Below are positions 6,693-27,357 of a stretch of 28,228 nt of DNA, one piece after another. Where the stretch lies: positions 1 through 28,228 of IMG/VR virus record IMGVR_UViG_3300017917_004147. One strand, given 5' to 3'. Within the stretch, counting starts at the first letter, position 1. Every line of letters begins with the position of its first letter. The translations under genes and the position numbers were made by a program. This stretch comes from a virus. The notes under the pieces were generated by a model. That model searched no databases. It saw only the letters and a program-made list of their open reading frames with translations, and was not told where the DNA came from.

Positions 6693-8627
6693 ATGTCATA
6701 TACTATTGAAAACCCTTACGAAAATTTTATTGCGCTGTCTCGATACGCAAGATGGATTCCAGAAGAGAATCGCCGAGAGACATGGGGTGAAACAGTAGAT
6801 AGATATTTCTTATTCATGCGTGATCATTTATTTAAAGAACATGGCTATGAACCAGAAGAAAAACTTGTTCAAGAATTAAAACAAGCTGTTCTTGACAGAA
6901 ACGTTATGCCGTCTATGCGATCAGTAATGACTGCAGGTGCAGCATTAGATCGTGATCATGTTGCTGGGTATAATTGTTCATTTGTACCAGTAGATTCTCC
7001 ACGTTCATTTGATGAAACAATGTATATCTTAATGTGTGGAACTGGTGTTGGATTCTCTGTTGAATACAAGTATGTTAATAAACTTCCTGCTGTGCCAGAG
7101 TCATTTGAAAAAACAAATACAATTATTTCTGTAGAAGATTCAAAACAAGGTTGGGCAAAAGCATATCGTGAACTATTAGCTTTATTGTGGTCTGGTCAAG
7201 TACCAGCAATTGATGTTTCTAAATTAAGACCAGCAGGTGCACGTCTTAAAACAATGGGAGGTCGTTCATCTGGACCTCAACCACTAATCAATCTTTTTGA
7301 TTTTACAATTGCTAAATTTAAAAATGCAGCAGGTCGTCAATTAAAACCAATTGAAGCACATGACCTTATGTGTAAAATTGGAGAAATTGTTGTAGTAGGT
7401 GGAGTTCGTCGTTCTGCAATGATTTCTCTTTCTAATATTAATGATATAGAAATGGCCGCCGCAAAATCAGGTAATTGGTGGGAAAATAATTCTCAACGTG
7501 CTCTATCTAATAATTCAGTTGCTTATTCTCGTAAACCAGAAATGGAACAGTTTATAACAGAATGGAAAAACTTATATGACTCAAAATCAGGAGAGCGTGG
7601 AATATATAACGTTGCAGCAGCTCAAAAGCAAGCGGCAAAATATGGACGCAGGGATCCTGAAATACATTATGGAACCAACCCTTGCTCAGAAATTATCTTA
7701 CGTCCTTATCAGTTTTGTAATCTTTCAGAAGTCGTATTACGTGAAAAAGATACAGTTGAAGATGTTGCAAATAAAGTACGTCTTGCAACAATTCTTGGAA
7801 CTTGGCAGTCAACGCTAACAGATTTTAAATATCTTCGTAAAATATGGAAAGACAATACAGAAGAAGAACGCCTATTAGGAGTATCTTTAACTGGACAATT
7901 TGGACATAAATTCTTTTCTGGAAAAGAAGATATTAATAAATTAGAAAAGGTATTAGTTGATCTTCGTGAGTCTGCACGAAAAGTTAATGCAGAAGAAGCT
8001 AAAAAAATTGGAATACAAGAATCGGCAGCAATTACATGCGTTAAGCCGTCAGGTACTGTATCTCAATTAGTAGGAGTATCTTCAGGAATGCATCCTTGGC
8101 ATTCAGATTATTATATTCGCACAGTTCGTGGAGATAAAAAAGATCCTCTTTCTACATTTTTAAAAGAGGTTGGTATTCCAGTAGAAGATGATTTTATGAA
8201 ACCAAATGATACATACGTATTTTCATTTCCAGTAAAAGCACCAGAAGGTGCAATTGTTAGAAATGATCTGACAGCAATTGATCATTTAAATACTTGGTTA
8301 GTATATCAACGTGCATGGTGTGAACACAAACCATCAATTACAGTATCTGTAAAAGAAGATGAGTGGATGGAAGTAGGAGCTTGGGTATATAAGCACTTTG
8401 ATGAAGTATCTGGCATTTCATTTCTTCCACATTCAGATCATTCATATAAACAGGCGCCATACCAAGAAGTAACAAAAGAAGAATACGAAGATCTTGTTTC
8501 TAAAATGCCTAAGTCTATTCGTTGGGAAGATTTATCATTTTATGAAACAGAAGATGGAACTAGTGGAACACAAACACTAGCTTGTACTTCAGATGGAAAT
8601 TGTGAACTTGTAGATATTTCTGCATAG
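6693..8627 (+). CDS. nrdJ: adenosylcobalamin-dependent ribonucleoside-triphosphate reductase (class II)
   Basis: A 644-residue monomeric-type class II ribonucleotide reductase, which makes deoxynucleotides using a B12-generated thiyl radical. Visible catalytic residues are Cys95 (GYNCSF), the radical Cys331 and Glu333 in GTNPCSEI, and Cys342 (QFCNLSEV). The 11-residue spacing 331-342 equals that of the Lactobacillus leichmannii enzyme (Cys408/Cys419). The C-terminal tail has the redox pair Cys631/Cys637 (ACTSDGNC). It is somewhat shorter than the roughly 740-residue prototype. No intein is present. The start has AGAGG about 6 bases upstream. Oxygen-independent dNTP supply suits a phage; coenzyme B12 must come from the host. 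CGT Arg codons are frequent, unlike in neighbouring genes. Confidence 0.92.
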   Translation: MSYTIENPYENFIALSRYARWIPEENRRETWGETVDRYFLFMRDHLFKEHGYEPEEKLVQELKQAVLDRNVMPSMRSVMTAGAALDRDHVAGYNCSFVPVDSPRSFDETMYILMCGTGVGFSVEYKYVNKLPAVPESFEKTNTIISVEDSKQGWAKAYRELLALLWSGQVPAIDVSKLRPAGARLKTMGGRSSGPQPLINLFDFTIAKFKNAAGRQLKPIEAHDLMCKIGEIVVVGGVRRSAMISLSNINDIEMAAAKSGNWWENNSQRALSNNSVAYSRKPEMEQFITEWKNLYDSKSGERGIYNVAAAQKQAAKYGRRDPEIHYGTNPCSEIILRPYQFCNLSEVVLREKDTVEDVANKVRLATILGTWQSTLTDFKYLRKIWKDNTEEERLLGVSLTGQFGHKFFSGKEDINKLEKVLVDLRESARKVNAEEAKKIGIQESAAITCVKPSGTVSQLVGVSSGMHPWHSDYYIRTVRGDKKDPLSTFLKEVGIPVEDDFMKPNDTYVFSFPVKAPEGAIVRNDLTAIDHLNTWLVYQRAWCEHKPSITVSVKEDEWMEVGAWVYKHFDEVSGISFLPHSDHSYKQAPYQEVTKEEYEDLVSKMPKSIRWEDLSFYETEDGTSGTQTLACTSDGNCELVDISA

Positions 8628-16617: not shown

Positions 16618-17925
16618 ATGAGTAAAAGATCTGGAAGAAAATCCCAGCAAGCAAATGATTTCTTGCAACCATATAAACCAATAATTGATTCAGTATCAGA
16701 TGTTGGTACAGGTAGAGCATATAACGACGGATCAGCATCAATTTCATTTAGTTTACCTGCAGGATCCCAGCCAGCAGATTCATTTACAGTAACCTCTAGT
16801 CCAACTGGATTAACAGTGACAGGTTCATCATCACCGTTAGTAATTACAGGATTAGCCTCTAATACGGAATATACATTTACAGTATATGCAACAAATTCTT
16901 ATGGTAATTCTGAAATATCTGATGCTTCTAGTAATGTATTAATTACTACTGTACCACAAGCTCCACTCTCTCCTTCAGTTTCTTCAACTATAGCAGATAA
17001 AGATGACGTCTCATGGACAGAGCCAGCAAGCGGTGGTAAAGCAATTACATCTTATACCGTAGTTTCTTCAGATGGTCCATCTTATCAAAATATTACAGGA
17101 TCATCCTATCAAGTTTCAGAAACAGGAGGAACTTCACAAAGTTATACTATTTATGCTATTAATGCTAATGGTACATCTTTAGGAGGAACTACAAGTCAAG
17201 TAACAACATTCTTCTCCCCACCATCATTCTTTGCTCCTCCAGGATTCTTCGGTCCACCACTATTCTTTGGCCCTCCAGGATTCTTCGGCCCACCACTATT
17301 CTTTGGCCCTCCAGGATTCTTCGGCCCACCACTATTCTTTGGCCCTCCAGGATTCTTTGGCCCTCCAGGATTCTTCGGCCCACCTAGATTCTTTGCTCCT
17401 CCAGGATTCTTCGGTCCTCCATACTTCAGTAAGTGTCTTCATGATGACACACCAGTAACAGTTGTTGGAGAAAATGATTCTATAGAATATAAACCAGCAA
17501 AAGATGTTCAAGAAGGAGATTGGATTTGGGCAGTAGAAATCCAAGAATTACCTTCAGATGAAGCAGCTTATTCATCACTATTCTGGACAAGTCCTACAGC
17601 GACATTTAATGGATTAGTAAAAACAGAAGTTATAAATAAGTATACTTCTTTAGCAGAAGAAACAATAATCATAAATAATGATCCTTCTTCTAGATTTACT
17701 AAAGAACATCCAATGTTTATTACTAGAAATGGTCAAAATAGTTTTATTTTAGCCGATTCTATTCAAGTTGGAGATATTTTATCAAAACATGATTCATCAG
17801 GAAATATCTATACAGAAGAAATTACTTCTATAGATGTAATAGTTGAAGAATGTACTGTTCATACCTTCAATGCCGAACCTTATGATTTAATTTATGCCAA
17901 TGGCATATTAACACATAATAAATAA
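16618..17925 (+). CDS. fibre protein: FN3 x2, FFxPP repeats, C-terminal Hint domain
   Basis: A 435-residue protein with four parts. Residues 1-30 are basic and then neutral. Residues 30-197 hold two fibronectin type III domains (ITGLASNTEYTFTVYATNSY; WTEPASGGKAITSYTVVSSD). Residues 198-269 are twelve hexads FF(G/A/S)PPx. Residues 273-435 are a Hint domain: Cys273-Leu-His-Asp-Asp-Thr-Pro at its first residue, then VQEGDWIWAV, the block-B motif FTKEHPMFITRNG, and a block F/G end, HTFNAEPYDLIYANGILTHN, with one Lys left after His433-Asn434. Hint domains cleave or ligate themselves through the first Cys and last Asn. As no Cys/Ser/Thr follows the Asn, splicing is unlikely and cleavage or nucleophile attachment is favoured. 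AAGGAG precedes the ATG. Confidence 0.85.
   Translation: MSKRSGRKSQQANDFLQPYKPIIDSVSDVGTGRAYNDGSASISFSLPAGSQPADSFTVTSSPTGLTVTGSSSPLVITGLASNTEYTFTVYATNSYGNSEISDASSNVLITTVPQAPLSPSVSSTIADKDDVSWTEPASGGKAITSYTVVSSDGPSYQNITGSSYQVSETGGTSQSYTIYAINANGTSLGGTTSQVTTFFSPPSFFAPPGFFGPPLFFGPPGFFGPPLFFGPPGFFGPPLFFGPPGFFGPPGFFGPPRFFAPPGFFGPPYFSKCLHDDTPVTVVGENDSIEYKPAKDVQEGDWIWAVEIQELPSDEAAYSSLFWTSPTATFNGLVKTEVINKYTSLAEETIIINNDPSSRFTKEHPMFITRNGQNSFILADSIQVGDILSKHDSSGNIYTEEITSIDVIVEECTVHTFNAEPYDLIYANGILTHNK
17209..17424 (+). repeat. tandem 18/36-bp repeats encoding FFGPP hexads
   Basis: Twelve 18-bp units encode FFxPPx hexads; alternate units (GFFGPP, LFFGPP) form a 36-bp higher-order repeat that is nearly identical in the centre. 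Open frames in the other reading frames here are by-products of the repeat. Confidence 0.9.
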
Positions 17926-17983: not shown

Positions 17984-18601
17984 TTGAAAAAGCAAGAAGT
18001 CGGTTATGGAATTTGGCTGTACGAAGACGTATTCCCAGACTCTTTAAATCTAATTAATAGATTAGAAAATACTATAGAGCAAAGTAATGGTATTTATTCT
18101 TGGAAAGAGGCTATGGTTGGCTGGAAGAAAAAAGTTCCAGAGTACAGAAATTGTTTAGATTTTAAAATTTCAAAATCAAATAATATTTCAGTAATAAAAA
18201 ATAAAAATAGTTTAGAAATTCAATCTATTTGGCAAGATTCTTATAATGCTCAAAAAGATTGTTTAGAAGATTATTGCAAAATGTATAATATTAAACTAGA
18301 TTATTGGGAAGCTTTTAATTTTGTTAAATATTTTGAAGGTCATCATTTTGAAGAACACTCAGACCATGGAGACGCATATGTTTGTACTGTATCTGGTGTT
18401 GGTTATTTAAATGATGATTATGAGGGTGGAGAACTATTTTTCCCTAAATTAAATATATATATAAAACCACAGGCAGGACAATTATATTTATTTCCTTCTA
18501 CCTTTATATATTCTCATAAATCTTTACCAATAAAAAACGGAATTAAATATTCAATAGTAACTATGTTTGACTATAACGATAAACATCATAAAGGAGTATA
18601 A
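17984..18601 (+). CDS. 2OG-Fe(II) oxygenase (P4H type), first of a tandem pair
   Basis: A 205-residue enzyme. Fe(II) ligands are His125-Ser-Asp127 (EEHSDHGD) and His178 (YSHKSLP); Lys188 (NGIKYSI) stands where Arg normally binds 2-oxoglutarate. The family signature GYLNDDYEGGELFFPK is present. The N-terminal 110 residues include WLYEDVFPDSLNLINRLE and YWEAFNFVKY. The start is TTG. It is paralogous to the next gene (same EAFNFVKY, HSDHG and GGELFF segments), consistent with tandem duplication. It is the first gene after the Hint-domain fibre protein. Its substrate is unknown; virion protein is the leading guess. Confidence 0.85.
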   Translation: MKKQEVGYGIWLYEDVFPDSLNLINRLENTIEQSNGIYSWKEAMVGWKKKVPEYRNCLDFKISKSNNISVIKNKNSLEIQSIWQDSYNAQKDCLEDYCKMYNIKLDYWEAFNFVKYFEGHHFEEHSDHGDAYVCTVSGVGYLNDDYEGGELFFPKLNIYIKPQAGQLYLFPSTFIYSHKSLPIKNGIKYSIVTMFDYNDKHHKGV

Positions 18602-19297
18602 ATGTTATCAAACGCTGAATACCTAGCCCCAGGAATAATGGTTTATAGAAACGTTTTCCCAGAATCTATGAATTTAATTAATCGTCTAGAATCAGAATTA
18701 TCAAAAGAAAATAATTCATATAAATGGAAAATAGCACAAACTGGTTATTCGTACACAGATAAAAGATATAGAGATTGTGCTGATTTTAAAATTAAAAGCA
18801 ATGATAATGGACATTTAATGCTAGGCGGAGAAATGGTAATGCCAGAAAACAAAACCGATACAGAAATAGCTTTAGAAAAAATATGGGAAGACTCCTATAA
18901 AGCTCAACTAGGCCCAGTAGAAGATTATAGAAAACTTTTCGGACTTGCCCCACTTAATTATTGGGAATCTTTTAATTTTGTTAAGTATGGAAAAGATCAG
19001 CATTTTCAAGTACATTCCGACCATGGATACTCCTACATATGCGTACTATCTTCAGTAGGATATATAAATGATGATTATGAAGGAGGAGAATTATTTTTTG
19101 ATAAAATTAATTTAAAGATTAAGCCAAAAGCTGGAGACTTATATCTTTTCCCGTCATCCTACATATATTCCCACGCAGCAATGCCAGTAACAAAAGGAGT
19201 CAAATATTCTATAGTAACAATGTTAGACTATTTAGAAGCTCCTCATACCCCAGACTATAGAAAAATTGAAAAAAGATATACAGAAAATTATTTATAA
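18602..19297 (+). CDS. 2OG-Fe(II) oxygenase (P4H type), second of a tandem pair
   Basis: A 231-residue paralogue of the preceding enzyme. Fe(II) ligands His138-Ser-Asp140 (QVHSDHGYS) and His191 (YSHAAMP), with Lys201 (GVKYSI) as the 2-oxoglutarate contact. Signature GYINDDYEGGELFFDK. It differs by an insertion near residues 70-90 and a C-terminal extension rich in basic and Tyr residues. The ATG follows the previous stop codon directly and GGAG lies 4 bases before it, so both are made together. Confidence 0.86.
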   Translation: MLSNAEYLAPGIMVYRNVFPESMNLINRLESELSKENNSYKWKIAQTGYSYTDKRYRDCADFKIKSNDNGHLMLGGEMVMPENKTDTEIALEKIWEDSYKAQLGPVEDYRKLFGLAPLNYWESFNFVKYGKDQHFQVHSDHGYSYICVLSSVGYINDDYEGGELFFDKINLKIKPKAGDLYLFPSSYIYSHAAMPVTKGVKYSIVTMLDYLEAPHTPDYRKIEKRYTENYL

Positions 19298-20001
19298 TGT
19301 ATAGAATAAAAGCATATACAAATGATAATTCTGCCAATATTTCTCAAATAAATATTAAAAGAGATTGGATGGATAACACTGTAGACGGTCATGCCTATAG
19401 ATGTTTCCCAGTTACTTTAGCAAATGGCTTAGGTTGGGGTCTCTCTTTTCCTAAAGATATTTCATTTATATGGGACGGGATATCAGATACTTCTGGACAT
19501 CATGTAAAAATATTAGAAGGAGAAGAGTATTGTTATACTGAAAGGGCTAACGCTACTATTAGTTTTAAAACAGGAATTATTTTTGAAACAGACCCTGATG
19601 TGAGTTTACTACAGATGCCAGTTCCAAATATGTTTATAGATGGAGCTCAAGCTTTTACAACAATAATGAGCACTTCATTTTTTAAAGGAGAATTTCCGTG
19701 TGCTTTAAGAATAAATAAACCATTTACAAAAATCACTATAAAAGCAAATCAACCATTTATATCTATTATTCCAATATCATTAACCAAATTACAAAATTCT
19801 TTTATTGAAATTGATGATCCTAAAAATATAAAACATAATGTAGTTTTGAATGGAGATGAGCATGTAGAAATAGTTAAAGAAAAAACAAATAATGGTCAGT
19901 GGACAAATTTTTATAGAGATGCTGTTAATTATAAAGGGCAAAAAATAGGAGAGCATGAAGTAAAAGCTATTAGGCTTCATGTAAATAATAAAAATGACTG
20001 A
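19297..20001 (+). CDS. DUF6065-like protein
   Basis: A 234-residue protein with the pattern RCFPVTLANGLGWGLSFP followed by WDG, and later KITIKANQPFISIIPI. This resembles the DUF6065 family, found in phages and bacteria near oxygenases and glycan genes; its function is not established. The fold appears all-beta, and no catalytic triad is obvious. TAATG overlaps the previous stop by one base. The next gene has the same overall order of motifs and may be a distant paralogue. Confidence 0.6.
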   Translation: MYRIKAYTNDNSANISQINIKRDWMDNTVDGHAYRCFPVTLANGLGWGLSFPKDISFIWDGISDTSGHHVKILEGEEYCYTERANATISFKTGIIFETDPDVSLLQMPVPNMFIDGAQAFTTIMSTSFFKGEFPCALRINKPFTKITIKANQPFISIIPISLTKLQNSFIEIDDPKNIKHNVVLNGDEHVEIVKEKTNNGQWTNFYRDAVNYKGQKIGEHEVKAIRLHVNNKND

Positions 20002-20710
20002 TATAATTTTTCATTCATCTAGAGAATATAATAATAAATCAAAAAATTATTTACCAATACCTGCAAAAAAACAACAACCAGACTGGTTTTCAAAATCAAG
20101 CAAATATTGGAAAAATGATAAAGGTGAAGATTTAATTAATAATTTTGGAAAAATTTTAGGATTCAAATCGTGCCCAGCACTATTAGATTCTTTTTCTTTA
20201 GGATATTTATTAACAACTCCTTGCGATTTAGCATTTTTTGAGTATAAAGACAATATTTATGTAGAAACAGAAGAGGGGTTTTCAGAATTTTGTGGAAGAA
20301 GAGATGATATGTATGGATTCCCTGTCCCACATGGATATAGAAAACAACATTTTCATTGGTGGCCAAATTGGTCTATTGAAACCCCACCAGGATATAGTTC
20401 AATCATTATGCATCCTTTAAATAGGTACGATTTACCTTTTTTAACAACTAATGGTATTATTGATAGCGATATGTATACTATTTCTGGGCTACTACCGTTT
20501 TTTTTAAAAAATGATTTTATTGGCCTACTCCCTAAAGGTACACCATATGCTCAAATAATTCCATTTAAAAGAGAAGAATATAGTATGAAAACCGTTATGC
20601 ATAGTCAAGATGAAATGTTTATAAAGCATACGGAAACTGCAAAAAATTTTAGAGTAAAAGATGGAGGCGTATACAAAAAAACAATTTGGTCTCCTAAAAA
20701 ATATGAATAG
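19994..20710 (+). CDS. DUF6065-related protein, remote paralogue of the preceding gene
   Basis: A 238-residue protein. Near residue 20 it has LPIPAKKQQPDWF, then KSCPALLDSFSLGYLLTTPC, HFHWWPNWSIETPPGYSS and GLLPKGTPYAQIIPFKREEY. The order (a G(W/Y)-LxxPxD strand, a central hydrophobic beta part, then a K-x-P/Q-IIPF strand) parallels the preceding gene. I recognise the type from phage genomes but not its function. Several His and Trp residues lie around residues 111-118. It overlaps the previous gene by 8 bases. Confidence 0.55.
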   Translation: MTDIIFHSSREYNNKSKNYLPIPAKKQQPDWFSKSSKYWKNDKGEDLINNFGKILGFKSCPALLDSFSLGYLLTTPCDLAFFEYKDNIYVETEEGFSEFCGRRDDMYGFPVPHGYRKQHFHWWPNWSIETPPGYSSIIMHPLNRYDLPFLTTNGIIDSDMYTISGLLPFFLKNDFIGLLPKGTPYAQIIPFKREEYSMKTVMHSQDEMFIKHTETAKNFRVKDGGVYKKTIWSPKKYE

Positions 20711-20721
20711 GATAAATATTT

Positions 20722-21444
20722 ATGGTATTTGAAAATGCTAACGAAAAAGATGTTATTTTAAATTATGATGCTTTAAAAGAGGGAAGGCACATAAGAAAAT
20801 CCAGACAGTCAATAACCCCATCTGGATATTTTGGATCATCCCCAGACATGATAAAAGAAATAGAAAATTTTTTAACTGAAGAAGAACAAACTACTTTATT
20901 AAATTTTGCTAAAAATAATAAAATATGGGATGTCACAGAATCTCATTATAATGAAAATGGAACTATTATTTATGACCATAGAGTTTGGGAAAATAGAGTA
21001 GCAACTTTAAATACGCTTATGAAAGCAGATGAAAGTATTGTTTTGATGTTGAGAAAAATTATAGATAGACTGAAGCCTATTATAGAAGAATTTTATAATG
21101 TAGAAGCAATATCTACAAATCCAGCAATTGTTAGGTGGCCAAAAGGAACTTATCAGTTCCCACATGCAGATAAAGAATTACACGAAGGACCAGATGCAGG
21201 AACAGAAAATGATTTTCCTTGGTATGATTTAGGAACTATTTTTTATCTTAATGATGACTATGAAGGCGGAGAATTACATTTTCCAAAACAACAGATATCT
21301 TTTAAACCCAAAGCTAGGGCAGCATATTTTTTCCCAGGAGATTTAAATTATATCCATGGAGTAAATATAGTTCAAGAAGGATGTAGGTATACTTCTCCTT
21401 GGTTCTGGACTATTAAACAATTAAAGGGATCAAAAAATGTTTGA
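20722..21444 (+). CDS. 2OG-Fe(II) oxygenase (P4H type)
   Basis: A 240-residue enzyme with a long N-terminal helical region. Fe(II) ligands are His148-Ala-Asp150 (FPHADKE) and His212 (YIHGVN); Arg222 (CRYTSPW) binds 2-oxoglutarate. Signature IFYLNDDYEGGELHFPK and FKPKARAAYFFPG. The insertion between the HxD motif and the signature (LHEGPDAGTENDF) is longer than in its neighbours and may shape the substrate cleft. AGGA lies about 8 bases before the ATG. It overlaps the next gene by 8 bases. Confidence 0.88.
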   Translation: MVFENANEKDVILNYDALKEGRHIRKSRQSITPSGYFGSSPDMIKEIENFLTEEEQTTLLNFAKNNKIWDVTESHYNENGTIIYDHRVWENRVATLNTLMKADESIVLMLRKIIDRLKPIIEEFYNVEAISTNPAIVRWPKGTYQFPHADKELHEGPDAGTENDFPWYDLGTIFYLNDDYEGGELHFPKQQISFKPKARAAYFFPGDLNYIHGVNIVQEGCRYTSPWFWTIKQLKGSKNV

Positions 21445-22150
21445 AATTACAAAGCATAAAGATGATGTTTTTACAATTAAAAATTTTATAACTAAGGATG
21501 AAGCTGATAGAATTATTGCTTACTTAGAAATGTCTGTTCAGATGGGATATATAAAATGGAACGAAATTTCATTTTATGAATCATATGCAATGGGATTTTG
21601 GGAATACGACAATAATTTAATTCCTTTTGGATTTGACCCAAAATATTTTCATTCTTTAAAAGAAAAAATTAAAAAAGCTTCCGAAGATTGTTTCGGAAAA
21701 GAGCTTTCAGAAATTAGTTATCATGCTCAAAAGTGGATTAAAGGAGCATTTGCAGACTTTCATTCAGATAATTCAGATAAAGAAGGAAATCCAACAGCGT
21801 TTCAAAGAAGTAAATATGCATCATTTTTATATTTAAATGATAATTTTGAAGGAGGATATTTAAATTTTGAACATTATCCTATAAATATTAAACCTGAAGT
21901 TGGCATGATTGCAATCTTTAGAGGCGGTCATGGAAATGAGCATGAAGTTACAACCGTAAGATCTGGTGAAAGATACACTATAGGATCATTTTGGGACGAT
22001 GCAGATGCAGTATATACAGATGAACAAAGAGCAGCCTGGGAAGCAGAGTTAAAAGTAACTCGTGCAGAACAAGATGTTATGTATAAAAAGTGGGCAGAAG
22101 ATAGAGCAGCAGGAATAGTTCCTCAATATAAAAGTAAATATGGATTATAA
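21437..22150 (+). CDS. 2OG-Fe(II) oxygenase (P4H type) with basic C-terminal tail
   Basis: A 237-residue enzyme. Fe(II) ligands His109-Ser-Asp111 (FHSDNSD) and His169 (GNEHEVT), with Arg179 (GERYTI) for 2-oxoglutarate. Signature FLYLNDNFEGGYLNFE; the usual acidic residue of GGEIEF is replaced by Tyr-Leu-Asn. A helical tail of about 50 residues (EQRAAWEAELKVTRAEQDVM, then YKSKYGL) extends beyond the core and may mediate partner binding. It is coupled by overlap to the previous gene. Confidence 0.87.
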   Translation: MFEITKHKDDVFTIKNFITKDEADRIIAYLEMSVQMGYIKWNEISFYESYAMGFWEYDNNLIPFGFDPKYFHSLKEKIKKASEDCFGKELSEISYHAQKWIKGAFADFHSDNSDKEGNPTAFQRSKYASFLYLNDNFEGGYLNFEHYPINIKPEVGMIAIFRGGHGNEHEVTTVRSGERYTIGSFWDDADAVYTDEQRAAWEAELKVTRAEQDVMYKKWAEDRAAGIVPQYKSKYGL

Positions 22151-22164
22151 TAGAAAGGTAAGCC

Positions 22165-22980
22165 ATGGAAGAGAAGTTAAACTATAAAACGTTATACCCT
22201 AAGATAGACGTATACCCAGACGCAATTCCAAATATACAAGAATTTATAGAAACAATTAAAGAATCTGAAAAAAATTCTAATGGAAGATATTATTTAAGAA
22301 AATGGGACCAATGGTCAATTTTTGGAACATATACTCAACAAAAACATGAAGCACATGAACCAAGAGAATATGGAGAAATGTATGATAGGGAGAAAAAACT
22401 ATCAGATACAGTTTATGAAGTATATAATAAAGCTTTAAAGGATTACATAGTAAGAAATCAAGTCACCCTACCAGAAGGTACACAATTAATGACATCATCT
22501 TTTTCTAAATATAAAAAAGATCTAGATGTTCTGGAAAATAATTTAGCAATGCAATATCATACCGATTTTAAAATTTTTGAAAAAGAACTCCCAGGACAAA
22601 AATTTTTTATGACCTGCACCATTTACTTAAATGATGATTATGAAGGTGGAGATATAGAATTTTTTATAGATAATCAATTTATTTCTCATAAGCCAAAAGC
22701 TGGAGATATTTTAATATTTCCTTCTACTCCTCCTTATTATCATGGAGTTAAGACTATCAAAAGTGGAGAAAAGTTTTTTATTAGAAATTTTTTAACATAT
22801 CCTTATGAAGGATCACAAAATTGGTTATTGGGACAAAAAATTTACGGTCCAAGAGAATGGTTGGCAATGGAAGAAGAAAGAATTGCTAAAGAAATGCCAT
22901 ATGCTATGCTCTATTTTGAAAATGGAAAACAAATTTCTTACGAAGAAAAAATTAAAAAAAGTGAAAATTACCAGTCTTGA
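22165..22980 (+). CDS. 2OG-Fe(II) oxygenase (P4H type), extended form
   Basis: The longest enzyme of the group, 271 residues. Fe(II) ligands His132-Thr-Asp134 (MQYHTDF) and His193 (YYHGVK); Lys203 (GEKFFI) takes the 2-oxoglutarate position. Signature IYLNDDYEGGDIEFFIDN and SHKPKAGDILIFPST. The C-terminal 60 residues (GSQNWLLGQKIYGPREWLAM, EERIAKEMP) lie outside the catalytic core. Upstream is AGAAAGG about 5 bases before the ATG. The 3' end overlaps the next gene by 20 bases. Confidence 0.87.
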   Translation: MEEKLNYKTLYPKIDVYPDAIPNIQEFIETIKESEKNSNGRYYLRKWDQWSIFGTYTQQKHEAHEPREYGEMYDREKKLSDTVYEVYNKALKDYIVRNQVTLPEGTQLMTSSFSKYKKDLDVLENNLAMQYHTDFKIFEKELPGQKFFMTCTIYLNDDYEGGDIEFFIDNQFISHKPKAGDILIFPSTPPYYHGVKTIKSGEKFFIRNFLTYPYEGSQNWLLGQKIYGPREWLAMEEERIAKEMPYAMLYFENGKQISYEEKIKKSENYQS

Positions 22981-23563
22981 AGATAAAATTATATATTACG
23001 AAAATCTAATTCCAGACGTAGATAATTTTATTAAGTTGTCAGAAAATGTAGAAGAACAATATTCTACATTTTTTTCTCCATGGAAAGATTGGTATTCAAG
23101 TAATACCAATTCTCTTTATGGAAAATTTAGAAGCGGATCATTCTCGGCTGCATTAAACTATTCTCATAATAAATCTAATACTTATCACATAGCTAAAACC
23201 ATTAAAGACTTAATGGATATATGCGTTAAAGACTATTGTAAAAAAACTAATAATAAATCTGGACACATGCCAGACTATTTTGCAATTAATAAATATAATA
23301 CTAATGCTTATATGGGACCTCATGTAGATACGGAAGATAGAACAAATAAACATAAGCCATCTATATCGATGGTTTTTTACTTAAATGATAATTATGAGGG
23401 TGGAGAAATTGAATTTCCAAATCAAAATATCAAATTAAAACCAAGCGCTGGAAGCTTAATAATATTCCCATCATATGAACCATACTTGCATGACCCAAAA
23501 CCAGTTTCTTCTGGATCAAAATACATGATTCCACTCTTTTGGTTTGAAGAAAAGTTTTGGTAA
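22961..23563 (+). CDS. 2OG-Fe(II) oxygenase (P4H type), GTG start
   Basis: A 200-residue enzyme. The frame is open from 22805, but the upstream 52 codons are a shadow of the preceding gene in another frame (Lys-rich, no homology). The GTG at 22961 gives a normal N-terminus like its relatives (ITSLEDKIIYYENLIPD). Fe(II) ligands His121-Val-Asp123 (GPHVDTED) and His177 (YLHDPK); Lys187 (GSKYMI) is the 2-oxoglutarate contact. Signature VFYLNDNYEGGEIEFPNQ closely matches the enzyme at 3823. No strong ribosome binding site; coupling to the overlapping upstream gene is likely. Confidence 0.85.
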   Translation: MKITSLEDKIIYYENLIPDVDNFIKLSENVEEQYSTFFSPWKDWYSSNTNSLYGKFRSGSFSAALNYSHNKSNTYHIAKTIKDLMDICVKDYCKKTNNKSGHMPDYFAINKYNTNAYMGPHVDTEDRTNKHKPSISMVFYLNDNYEGGEIEFPNQNIKLKPSAGSLIIFPSYEPYLHDPKPVSSGSKYMIPLFWFEEKFW

Positions 23564-25435: not shown

Positions 25436-25771
25436 ATGGATATTAAAAGAATGAATCAAGAGCTCATAGAAGAGACTACTTTAGGAATTTATGTTTGGGA
25501 AATGCCAGACGGACGATGGATTGGCGATGATGAAGGAAACTTCTTGTCTGTAACATCTAAAAAAGGCAACAAGTCTAGAATGGATGCACTTGCCAGAGAA
25601 GTTAGATCATATGGAATATATGAGGGTAAACCTAAGTTTTTATCTGGTCGTCGCAAAATAGATGATGAAGAGTTTGAGTATCAAAAGCAAAGATTAGACT
25701 GGGGCTTGACGCCAGATCCACTTGATATTGGAGTTTATAAAGATAATATGAAAAACGGAGGAAGACCATAA
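25436..25771 (+). CDS. small conserved phage protein upstream of the portal
   Basis: A 111-residue protein: LGIYVWEMPDGRWIGDDEGN, then KSRMDALAREVRSYGI with KPKFLSG, and an acidic/Arg C-terminus (EEFEYQKQRLDWGLTPDPLD). I recognise the type as a conserved phage protein located next to the portal gene but not its function. It ends in an A shared with the portal start (TAATG), so the two are translationally coupled. Its position suggests a head or packaging role. No terminase gene is visible on this side. Confidence 0.6.
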   Translation: MDIKRMNQELIEETTLGIYVWEMPDGRWIGDDEGNFLSVTSKKGNKSRMDALAREVRSYGIYEGKPKFLSGRRKIDDEEFEYQKQRLDWGLTPDPLDIGVYKDNMKNGGRP

Positions 25772-27357
25772 TGGAATTTATTGATGATGAGAATAATATA
25801 TCTCAAGAGATAAGTATATCTAACTCCGCAGACTGGTTTAAATTTAATAGCAAAGAAGTTACAATAGACAATGATCCATTTAATATTGATGAAGATGGAT
25901 TAAGAAAAGTTAATGGATTAAGTCCAACATTTAGACGAAAGATGTCTAGAGAGTTTTCAAAAAGATTTGTAGGAAAAGAAGGAACTGGAACTCAGCAGAA
26001 CCTACTGCAACAAGCGGTAACAGGATATGCTATGTTCGATTTAGTCCAGCCAGTATATAATCTAGAATACCTATCAAAAATTTATGAGATATCGCCATAT
26101 AACTATGCAGCAATTAATGCAAAGGTGGCAAACATTGTTGGCCTTGGATACACATTTGTTGAAACAAAAAAAGCAAATGATGCATTAGATTCAATTGAAG
26201 ATGAAAAGCAATTAGAACGTGCACGTCGTAAGCTAAATAAACTTCGTCAAGATTTAGATATATGGCTAGAAGATTGTAATGAAGAAGAAACATTTACAGA
26301 AACATTAATAAAAGCATACACAGATCTTGAAGCAACAGGAAATGCTTATATTGAAATAGGCAGAACAAGCTCTGGCAATATTGGTTATATTGGACATATT
26401 CCTGCAAAGACAATGCGTGTCCGTCGTTTGCGTGATGGATTTATTCAATTACTTTATGGTAAGGCAGTATATTTTAGAAATTTTGGAGATACAGAAACTC
26501 CAAATCCAATTGCAGGTGTAGAAGATAGACCAAATGAAATTATTCATTTAAAGAAATATACTCCAATGAATAATTACTACGGTATTCCAGATATTATTGC
26601 TGCACAAAATGCAATGGCAGGAAACGAATTTGCTGGTAAATATAATTTAGATTATTTCGAAAATAAGGCTGTCCCTAGATATATTATTACAGTAAAAGGT
26701 GCAAAGCTATCTCCTGAGTCTGAGCGTAAATTACTTGAGTTTTTCCAGGTAGGACTTAAGGGAAAGAATCACAGATCCTTATATGTCCCACTTCCAGCAG
26801 ATAGCGCAGATTCTAAAGTTGAATTTAAGATGGAACCAATTGAGGCTAATTCACAAGAGTCATCATTTAACGTATATCGAAAAGCAAATAGAGATGAAAT
26901 ATTATTGGCCCATAGAGTTCCAATTAATAAAATTGGAGTCCCAGAAGGAATTAGTTTAGCCTCTGCTCGTGACGCAGATAAAATGTTTAAAGAACAGGTT
27001 TGCCGACCAGCTCAAGATATTTTAGAGAAAAAATTAAATAGAATTATTGCAGAAAAAACAGATGCTGTAATTCTTAAATTTAATGAGCTCACCCTTACAG
27101 ACGAAGATACACAGTCTAAAATTGATGAAAGATATTTACGTATGCAGGTTATTACCCCTAATGAGGTTAGAATTCGTAAAGGCATGATTCCTATGGATGG
27201 TGGGGACGAGGTAGTTATTTTAAAACCTCAACAACAATCTGAAATTAGGGCTCAGGCTGGAAATTCTAGAAATAGAACCCAGGAGCGTTCTGCAAATTCC
27301 CCAGATATTTCAGGGGAGGGCAGAAATACAAAAGGTGAAGGTAGAGTCACCGCTTAA
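25771..27357 (+). CDS. phage portal protein, PBSX (XkdE-like) family
   Basis: A 528-residue portal. Characteristic stretches are YNLEYLSKIYEISPYNYAAI with a VANIVGLGYTFV follow-on, LIKAYTDLEATGNAYIEIGR, PAKTMRVRRLRDGFIQL, PNEIIHLKKYTPMNNYYGIP, NLDYFENKAVPRYIITVKG and LLAHRVPINKIGVPEG. The portal ring is the DNA gate at the capsid vertex and joins head to tail. A charged helix at about 125-180 probably belongs to the stem. The C-terminus is Gln/Arg/Gly-rich and looks disordered. GGAGG lies 6 bases before the ATG, within the preceding gene. A terminator follows at 27363. Confidence 0.88.
   Translation: MEFIDDENNISQEISISNSADWFKFNSKEVTIDNDPFNIDEDGLRKVNGLSPTFRRKMSREFSKRFVGKEGTGTQQNLLQQAVTGYAMFDLVQPVYNLEYLSKIYEISPYNYAAINAKVANIVGLGYTFVETKKANDALDSIEDEKQLERARRKLNKLRQDLDIWLEDCNEEETFTETLIKAYTDLEATGNAYIEIGRTSSGNIGYIGHIPAKTMRVRRLRDGFIQLLYGKAVYFRNFGDTETPNPIAGVEDRPNEIIHLKKYTPMNNYYGIPDIIAAQNAMAGNEFAGKYNLDYFENKAVPRYIITVKGAKLSPESERKLLEFFQVGLKGKNHRSLYVPLPADSADSKVEFKMEPIEANSQESSFNVYRKANRDEILLAHRVPINKIGVPEGISLASARDADKMFKEQVCRPAQDILEKKLNRIIAEKTDAVILKFNELTLTDEDTQSKIDERYLRMQVITPNEVRIRKGMIPMDGGDEVVILKPQQQSEIRAQAGNSRNRTQERSANSPDISGEGRNTKGEGRVTA

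Follow-up and report, generated by a model that had tools for sequence, protein, structure and literature searches.

A C-terminal intein-like (Hint) domain followed by a single lysine in a lake-phage fibre protein

The fibre gene and its surroundings

The window, by which is meant the whole stretch of viral DNA that was analysed (28,228 nucleotides; IMG/VR record IMGVR_UViG_3300017917_004147), contains an ORF at 16618-17925 that matches a PHROG minor tail protein (phrog_6977, 5.7e-6). The following features were assigned to it.

16618..17925, plus strand: fibre-like structural protein of 435 aa (ORF), with fn3, then FF(G/A/S)PP repeats, then a C-terminal Hint domain
16720..16932, plus strand: fibronectin type III domain, aa 35-105 (Pfam PF00041, E 7e-12)
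17208..17421, plus strand: array of the hexapeptide FF(G/A)PPx, 18-nt unit, about 11 copies (TRF)
17434..17922, plus strand: Hint domain, aa 273-434 (162 residues), plus terminal Lys435 (AF2 model, VIA-align)
17434..17436, plus strand: Cys1 (Cys273), predicted thioester nucleophile, invariant in alignment A1
17698..17709, plus strand: block B T-K-E-H (T361, H364), from T/S and H conservation among terminal Hints
17914..17919, plus strand: block G His433-Asn434, from sequence; common to all terminal-Lys Hints, most of which were collected with an HN-containing pattern
17920..17925, plus strand: single-residue C-extein Lys435 and stop (TAA), the residue left free in the scan

The original prediction had started the domain at Cys273 (17434), with a TxxH block B and a His-Asn-Lys end, and the sequence bears out both the coordinates and the residues (T361-K-E-H364; His433-Asn434-Lys435-stop). 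Close relatives were found at 10 loci (85-91% identity), with an identical architecture throughout and with Cys1, TxxH and HNK-stop kept in all. The copy number of the 18-nt array differs among these relatives, and protein lengths are 435 (window), 438, 453 and 495 aa. An AF2 model of the full-length fibre, obtained with 4 sequences only, reached a pLDDT of 47.9 and is uninformative on the repeats. Elsewhere on this contig, at 6693-8627 and 25771-27357, are genes for an adenosylcobalamin-dependent (class II) ribonucleotide reductase and a portal protein.

Directly downstream of the Pro-rich Hint fibre, six PF13640 2OG-Fe(II) oxygenase genes and a DUF6065 gene occupy positions 17984-23563 of the window. 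The Hint fibre of the FFxPP and PTAP clades commonly has an Mtd_N-type fibre on one side and at least one 2OG-Fe(II) oxygenase gene on the other. Related oxygenases come after it in most members of these two clades, but not in the tandem-Hint clade. It is possible that these enzymes hydroxylate the Pro-rich fibre, or a lysine.

Fold and active site of the Hint domain

The match of the domain to Pfam PF14890 (Intein_splicing) is weak (3.6e-5, under the gathering score). An AF2 model of the Hint domain alone, based on a 39-sequence alignment, has a pLDDT of 93.6 and a pTM of 0.87, and it aligns over 129-136 residues with the Mtu RecA intein (Z 18.2), Tetrahymena thermophila BUBL1 BIL2 (Z 18.2), Hedgehog (Z 17.9) and the Clostridium thermocellum BIL (Z 17.3). 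On the basis of this model, the C-terminal end of this lake-phage fibre is a genuine intein-like domain of the Hint superfamily, and its fold is assigned with high confidence. A Hint domain at the C-terminus of a repeat-rich structural protein, akin to those of BIL and Hedgehog proteins, had been predicted before modelling, and these values confirm it.

Residues of this kind have known reactions, namely thioester formation by Cys1 and cyclisation by Asn. The window protein has the complete catalytic set. Among the terminal Hints (n = 41), Cys1 is present in 41, as are the penultimate His and Asn, although the His-Asn counts, and partly that of Cys1, reflect how the set was selected; block-B position B7 is Thr or Ser in 41 of 41, and B10 is His in 29 and Gln in 12. 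The change of block-B His to Gln (TxxQ, SLEQ) occurs in two FFxPP subfamilies, both of which keep Cys1 and HNK. The first comprises L034, L039, L047, L051, L062, L065, L074 and L076 and has Pro at -1 (GPP|CVEENT); the second comprises L024 and L075. A proline at -1 should slow thioester formation. A catalytically dead Hint domain, retained as a structural or binding fibre tip, might account for the 12 of 41 relatives that lack the block-B His and for the Pro at -1 in one subfamily. Yet Cys1, His-Asn and Lys persist among relatives down to 25-30% identity, and the window protein has its catalytic residues intact, so that a dead domain seems very improbable here.

The terminal lysine among related Hint domains

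The residue after His-Asn was left free in a scan of IMG/VR for Gly-Ile-x-Val-His-Asn-X-TAA. The 58 stretches found include 41 Hint proteins, with X = Lys in every one; the other 17 are chance ORFs, short or unrelated, with Leu, Tyr, Gly and other residues at X. A parallel scan for HN followed directly by a stop gave 36 matches and no Hint protein. Among the matches listed for the unconstrained pattern YxANGIxVHN, there are at least 12 distinct one-residue tails, all of them Lys, while the listed Hints that continue for at least 14 residues carry Cys, Ser or Thr at +1, except for two with Val (L147, L182). When all ORFs of 275 loci were searched with a profile that omitted the last residue, 42 distinct one-residue tails were recovered (Lys in 42/42). 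For tails of at least 15 residues in the same profile scan, +1 is Cys in 90, Ser in 6, Thr in 3 and another residue in 20 (Arg 8, Ala 5, Phe 4, Ile 2, Leu 1), these 20 being mostly earlier Hints of tandem arrays. Later loci brought the distinct one-residue-tail Hints to 47, all Lys. Homology alone led to two more, the Bacteroidota proteins L314 and L316, which end HNK-stop and bring the count to 49 of 49. Many of these had been gathered by means of an HNK-containing pattern, so the fair tests are the X-free scan and the homology finds.

Chance was considered as a source of this pattern, but the background frequency of a C-terminal Lys (24.5% of 310 other ORFs in the same contigs) cannot give 49 of 49, even with 5-10 independent clusters. 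Frameshifting or readthrough past the stop was also rejected, as the H, N and K codons vary freely and the downstream sequence is unrelated, often with a new start or ribosome-binding site. The codons used within HNK are mixed (Lys AAA 23, AAG 23; His CAC 30, CAT 16; Asn AAC 25, AAT 21), and the even split for Lys indicates that selection acts on the protein and not on a DNA motif. The Lys-ended Hints are mutually related, forming 25 clusters at 70% identity, 10 at 50% and 5 at 40%, with at least two separate groups required by the tree, so that the 49 cases represent far fewer independent events. From these sequence comparisons, the rule that a one-residue tail is Lys is real, with a modest number of independent supports.

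The scaffolds that precede Lys-ended Hints are diverse, including fn3 with FFxPP, PPFFPPFF repeats, Pro/Thr-rich (PTAP) sequences, large multi-domain proteins and tandem Hint arrays. Tandem C-terminal arrays of 2-3 Hints were seen in L288 (a 391-aa ORF), L032, L044, L050, L069 and L081, with very short linkers (AP, RAAPC, RYIPPGGPC); after HN, the internal Hints of such arrays continue with Arg, Phe, Ala, Ile or Leu, and the final Hint ends HNK-stop. Six matches came from a scan covering 84,980 bacterial and archaeal genomes; two of them are Hint proteins, both ending HNK-stop and both from one Bacteroidales MAG. Homology searches found further Bacteroidota Hints near the C-terminus, with the tails K, K, KF, KSNQNK, KIGNN, RS and RNLN. 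In bacterial Hints that are followed by a long protein part, the +1 residue is Gly, Asn, Ala, Ser, Leu, Gln or Asp. Searches of the open-licence literature gave no mention of a conserved Lys after a Hint domain; the Lys-ended Hints of phage and bacterial surface proteins form a widespread set that is apparently undescribed.

Exceptions to a strictly terminal Lys are of several kinds. Lys stands at +1 without ending the protein in three Hints (L297 KF, L317 KIGNN, NCTB KVD), which indicates that position +1, and not the C-terminus as such, matters in those three. Two bacterial Hints close to the C-terminus (L318 RS, L320 RNLN), and many of the internal Hints in tandem arrays, carry Arg at +1. 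Other short tails begin with Val, Phe or Ala (L147/L198, L135, NCTB), and L274 has His-Asp-SASIE. A number of Bacteroidota Hints near the C-terminus (L308-L313, L315, L319) lack His-Asn (e.g. FVANGFIV-GQE-stop) and, judged by sequence, are possibly a B-type-like group.

Possible roles of the lysine

Lys435 had initially been treated as an inert leftover, a view that the invariance of Lys in single-residue-tail Hints contradicts; that invariance makes Lys435 itself the first candidate for an acceptor or catalytic helper. The lone terminal Lys is not incidental but a conserved feature of one-residue-tail Hints, which suggests that it takes part in the reaction. The reading preferred here, tentatively and at somewhat under an even call, is that of an autoprocessing Hint domain of A-type BIL character whose C-extein would be one functional Lys.

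We infer the following chemistry. The Hint domain would fold, a step well supported by the model, and Cys273 would then attack the Lys272-Cys273 peptide bond to form a thioester on the fibre, as expected from Cys1 and TxxH. The side-chain amine of Lys435, at the place of the intein Cys/Ser/Thr +1, might accept the fibre C-terminus as an isopeptide; alternatively, the acceptor might be the Lys435 alpha-amine, freed by Asn434 cyclisation. This third step draws on the invariance of Lys and on the isopeptide formation reported for BIL2. Finally, cyclisation of Asn434 would release the Hint domain, as suggested by the conserved His-Asn and by the lack of Hint proteins ending at Asn. The net outcome would be a repeat fibre freed of its Hint domain and Lys-capped or Lys-crosslinked at its end, probably after folding or assembly. 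Because a Lys joined through an ordinary peptide bond could simply be encoded, a one-residue C-extein that is always Lys would be kept for its chemistry. A freed single Lys would presumably diffuse away, unlike one whose side-chain amine had accepted the fibre directly.

In a stricter version, which is rather unlikely, the Lys epsilon-amine would replace Cys/Ser/Thr as the branch-point acceptor to give an irreversible isopeptide, and Asn cyclisation would free a virion fibre that is Lys-capped or, if the reaction is intermolecular, Lys-crosslinked. Such a mechanism, shared by phage fibre scaffolds and by surface proteins of bacteria, would constitute a new mechanistic class of Hint. Counted against any functional Lys are the Gln in place of block-B His in 12 of 41 relatives, the Pro at -1, the Arg at +1 and the other short tails.

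The strongest point in favour of charge alone is the Arg found at +1 in some relatives, as it implies that positive charge, and not an amine nucleophile, may be the selected feature. This Arg favours hydrolytic self-removal, in which the Hint domain would be a disposable folding or solubility cap, functionally comparable, perhaps, to the S74 intramolecular chaperone of tailspikes; the Cys1 thioester would be hydrolysed, Asn would cyclise, and Lys would be a leaving or electrostatic residue. A-type BILs are reported to yield mainly cleavage products (PMC4031507), and the hydrophobic FFxPP repeats plausibly need a solubiliser. Hydrolysis gives no chemical reason, however, for Lys without any Arg in 49 one-residue tails, although with so few independent lineages the absence of Arg could be due to chance. 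Hydrolytic removal, including the chaperone analogy, is a credible but unlikely alternative to a functional Lys.

A Hedgehog-like intermolecular transfer, from the fibre thioester to an outside nucleophile such as a lysine of a neighbouring fibre or of the capsid, a lipid or a glycan, was also weighed. The Hedgehog domain has the same fold, and BIL2 is described as conjugating a ubiquitin-like protein to other proteins (PMC8616854). On the other hand, no acceptor-recognition domain follows the Hint, and the conserved His-Asn and invariant terminal Lys would be left unexplained, which makes transfer to an outside acceptor quite improbable. A lipid or glycan acceptor, raised in the original prediction, finds nothing in its favour, with no sterol-recognition-type region after the Hint.

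To our knowledge, BIL-type Hint domains have no settled biological role so far. A large set of phage-fibre Hints with one invariant extra lysine offers a concrete, testable hypothesis on that role. If Lys is the acceptor, it would provide an ATP-free, single-domain route to isopeptide bonds or to the capping of protein ends. Such a route would be relevant to protein engineering as well as to phage assembly. The Lys-ended set also helps to explain structural proteins of uncultured phages that are now named merely by fn3 or 'Hint'.

Relation to known Hint systems

The nearest models in the public set of viral structures belong to uncultured Caudovirales proteins, which are named 'Fibronectin type III' or 'Hint domain containing'. 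One of the former, A0A6J5MFV5, matches in its Hint domain (TM 0.93, 34% identity) and is named by its other domain. Queries of isolate phages with Lys-ended Hints returned nothing but true inteins, phage NCTB and two records without annotation, one from an uncultured phage and one from a faecal phage. Among isolates, NCTB alone has a clear counterpart, at 28% identity, which bears the annotation 'tail protein, contains intein domain'; the NCTB tails after HN differ (AVMVAKK, KVD, APVDQKH), and the NCTB tail protein is followed by a second Hint ORF with the tail HN-KVD.

Class 1 inteins (Mtu RecA, Npu DnaB) share with the window Hint the fold (Z 17-18), Cys1 (Cys273), block-B TxxH (T361-x-x-H364), the penultimate His and the terminal Asn, but the window Hint has no C-extein to splice to and, as had been predicted, no Cys/Ser/Thr at +1, Lys435 being followed by the stop. 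A class 3 intein (Cys F:4, Trp B:12, Thr G:5, no Cys1) was rejected, as Cys1 is present, F:4 is Thr, B:11-12 is Pro-Met and the WCT triad is absent. Block-F Asp was likewise dropped as a means of telling inteins and terminal Hints apart, because most of the inteins here also have Asn at F:4. The Hedgehog autoprocessing domain (1at0) has the C-terminal position and the fold in common with the window protein, which differs in its C-terminal His-Asn followed by Lys and in ending one residue on, without a sterol-recognition region. PT-HINT polymorphic toxins carry a toxin domain downstream; no domain follows the window Hint, unlike bacterial Hints in which HN is followed by some 100-150 residues.

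Tetrahymena BUBL1 polyubiquitin BIL2 (6y75/6tmm) is the equal-best structural match and, according to its structure providers, splices through Lys isopeptides, K(epsilon-NH2)-C-terminus (PMC8616854). It differs in being flanked by ubiquitin-like domains, with its acceptor Lys in the next domain or in another protein, whereas the window Hint is preceded by fn3 and FFxPP and followed by Lys alone. The A-type BIL of C. thermocellum (2lwy) shares the Hint fold, a C-terminal His-Asn without nucleophilic Cys/Ser/Thr at +1 (here HNK-stop) and a variable, non-conserved host protein, which in this case is a repeat-rich fibre of variable length, with differing scaffolds among relatives. A-type BILs are described as mainly cleaving, with weak splicing when the amino group that has been freed attacks the thioester (PMC4031507), and the reviews consulted (PMC4031507, PMC7765530) name no fixed +1 residue. 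Described members sit between two protein parts, whereas here the C-part is one invariant Lys. From its sequence features, we read the Lys-ended Hint as a variant of the A-type BIL domain, called a variant and not a plain member because only one residue follows it.
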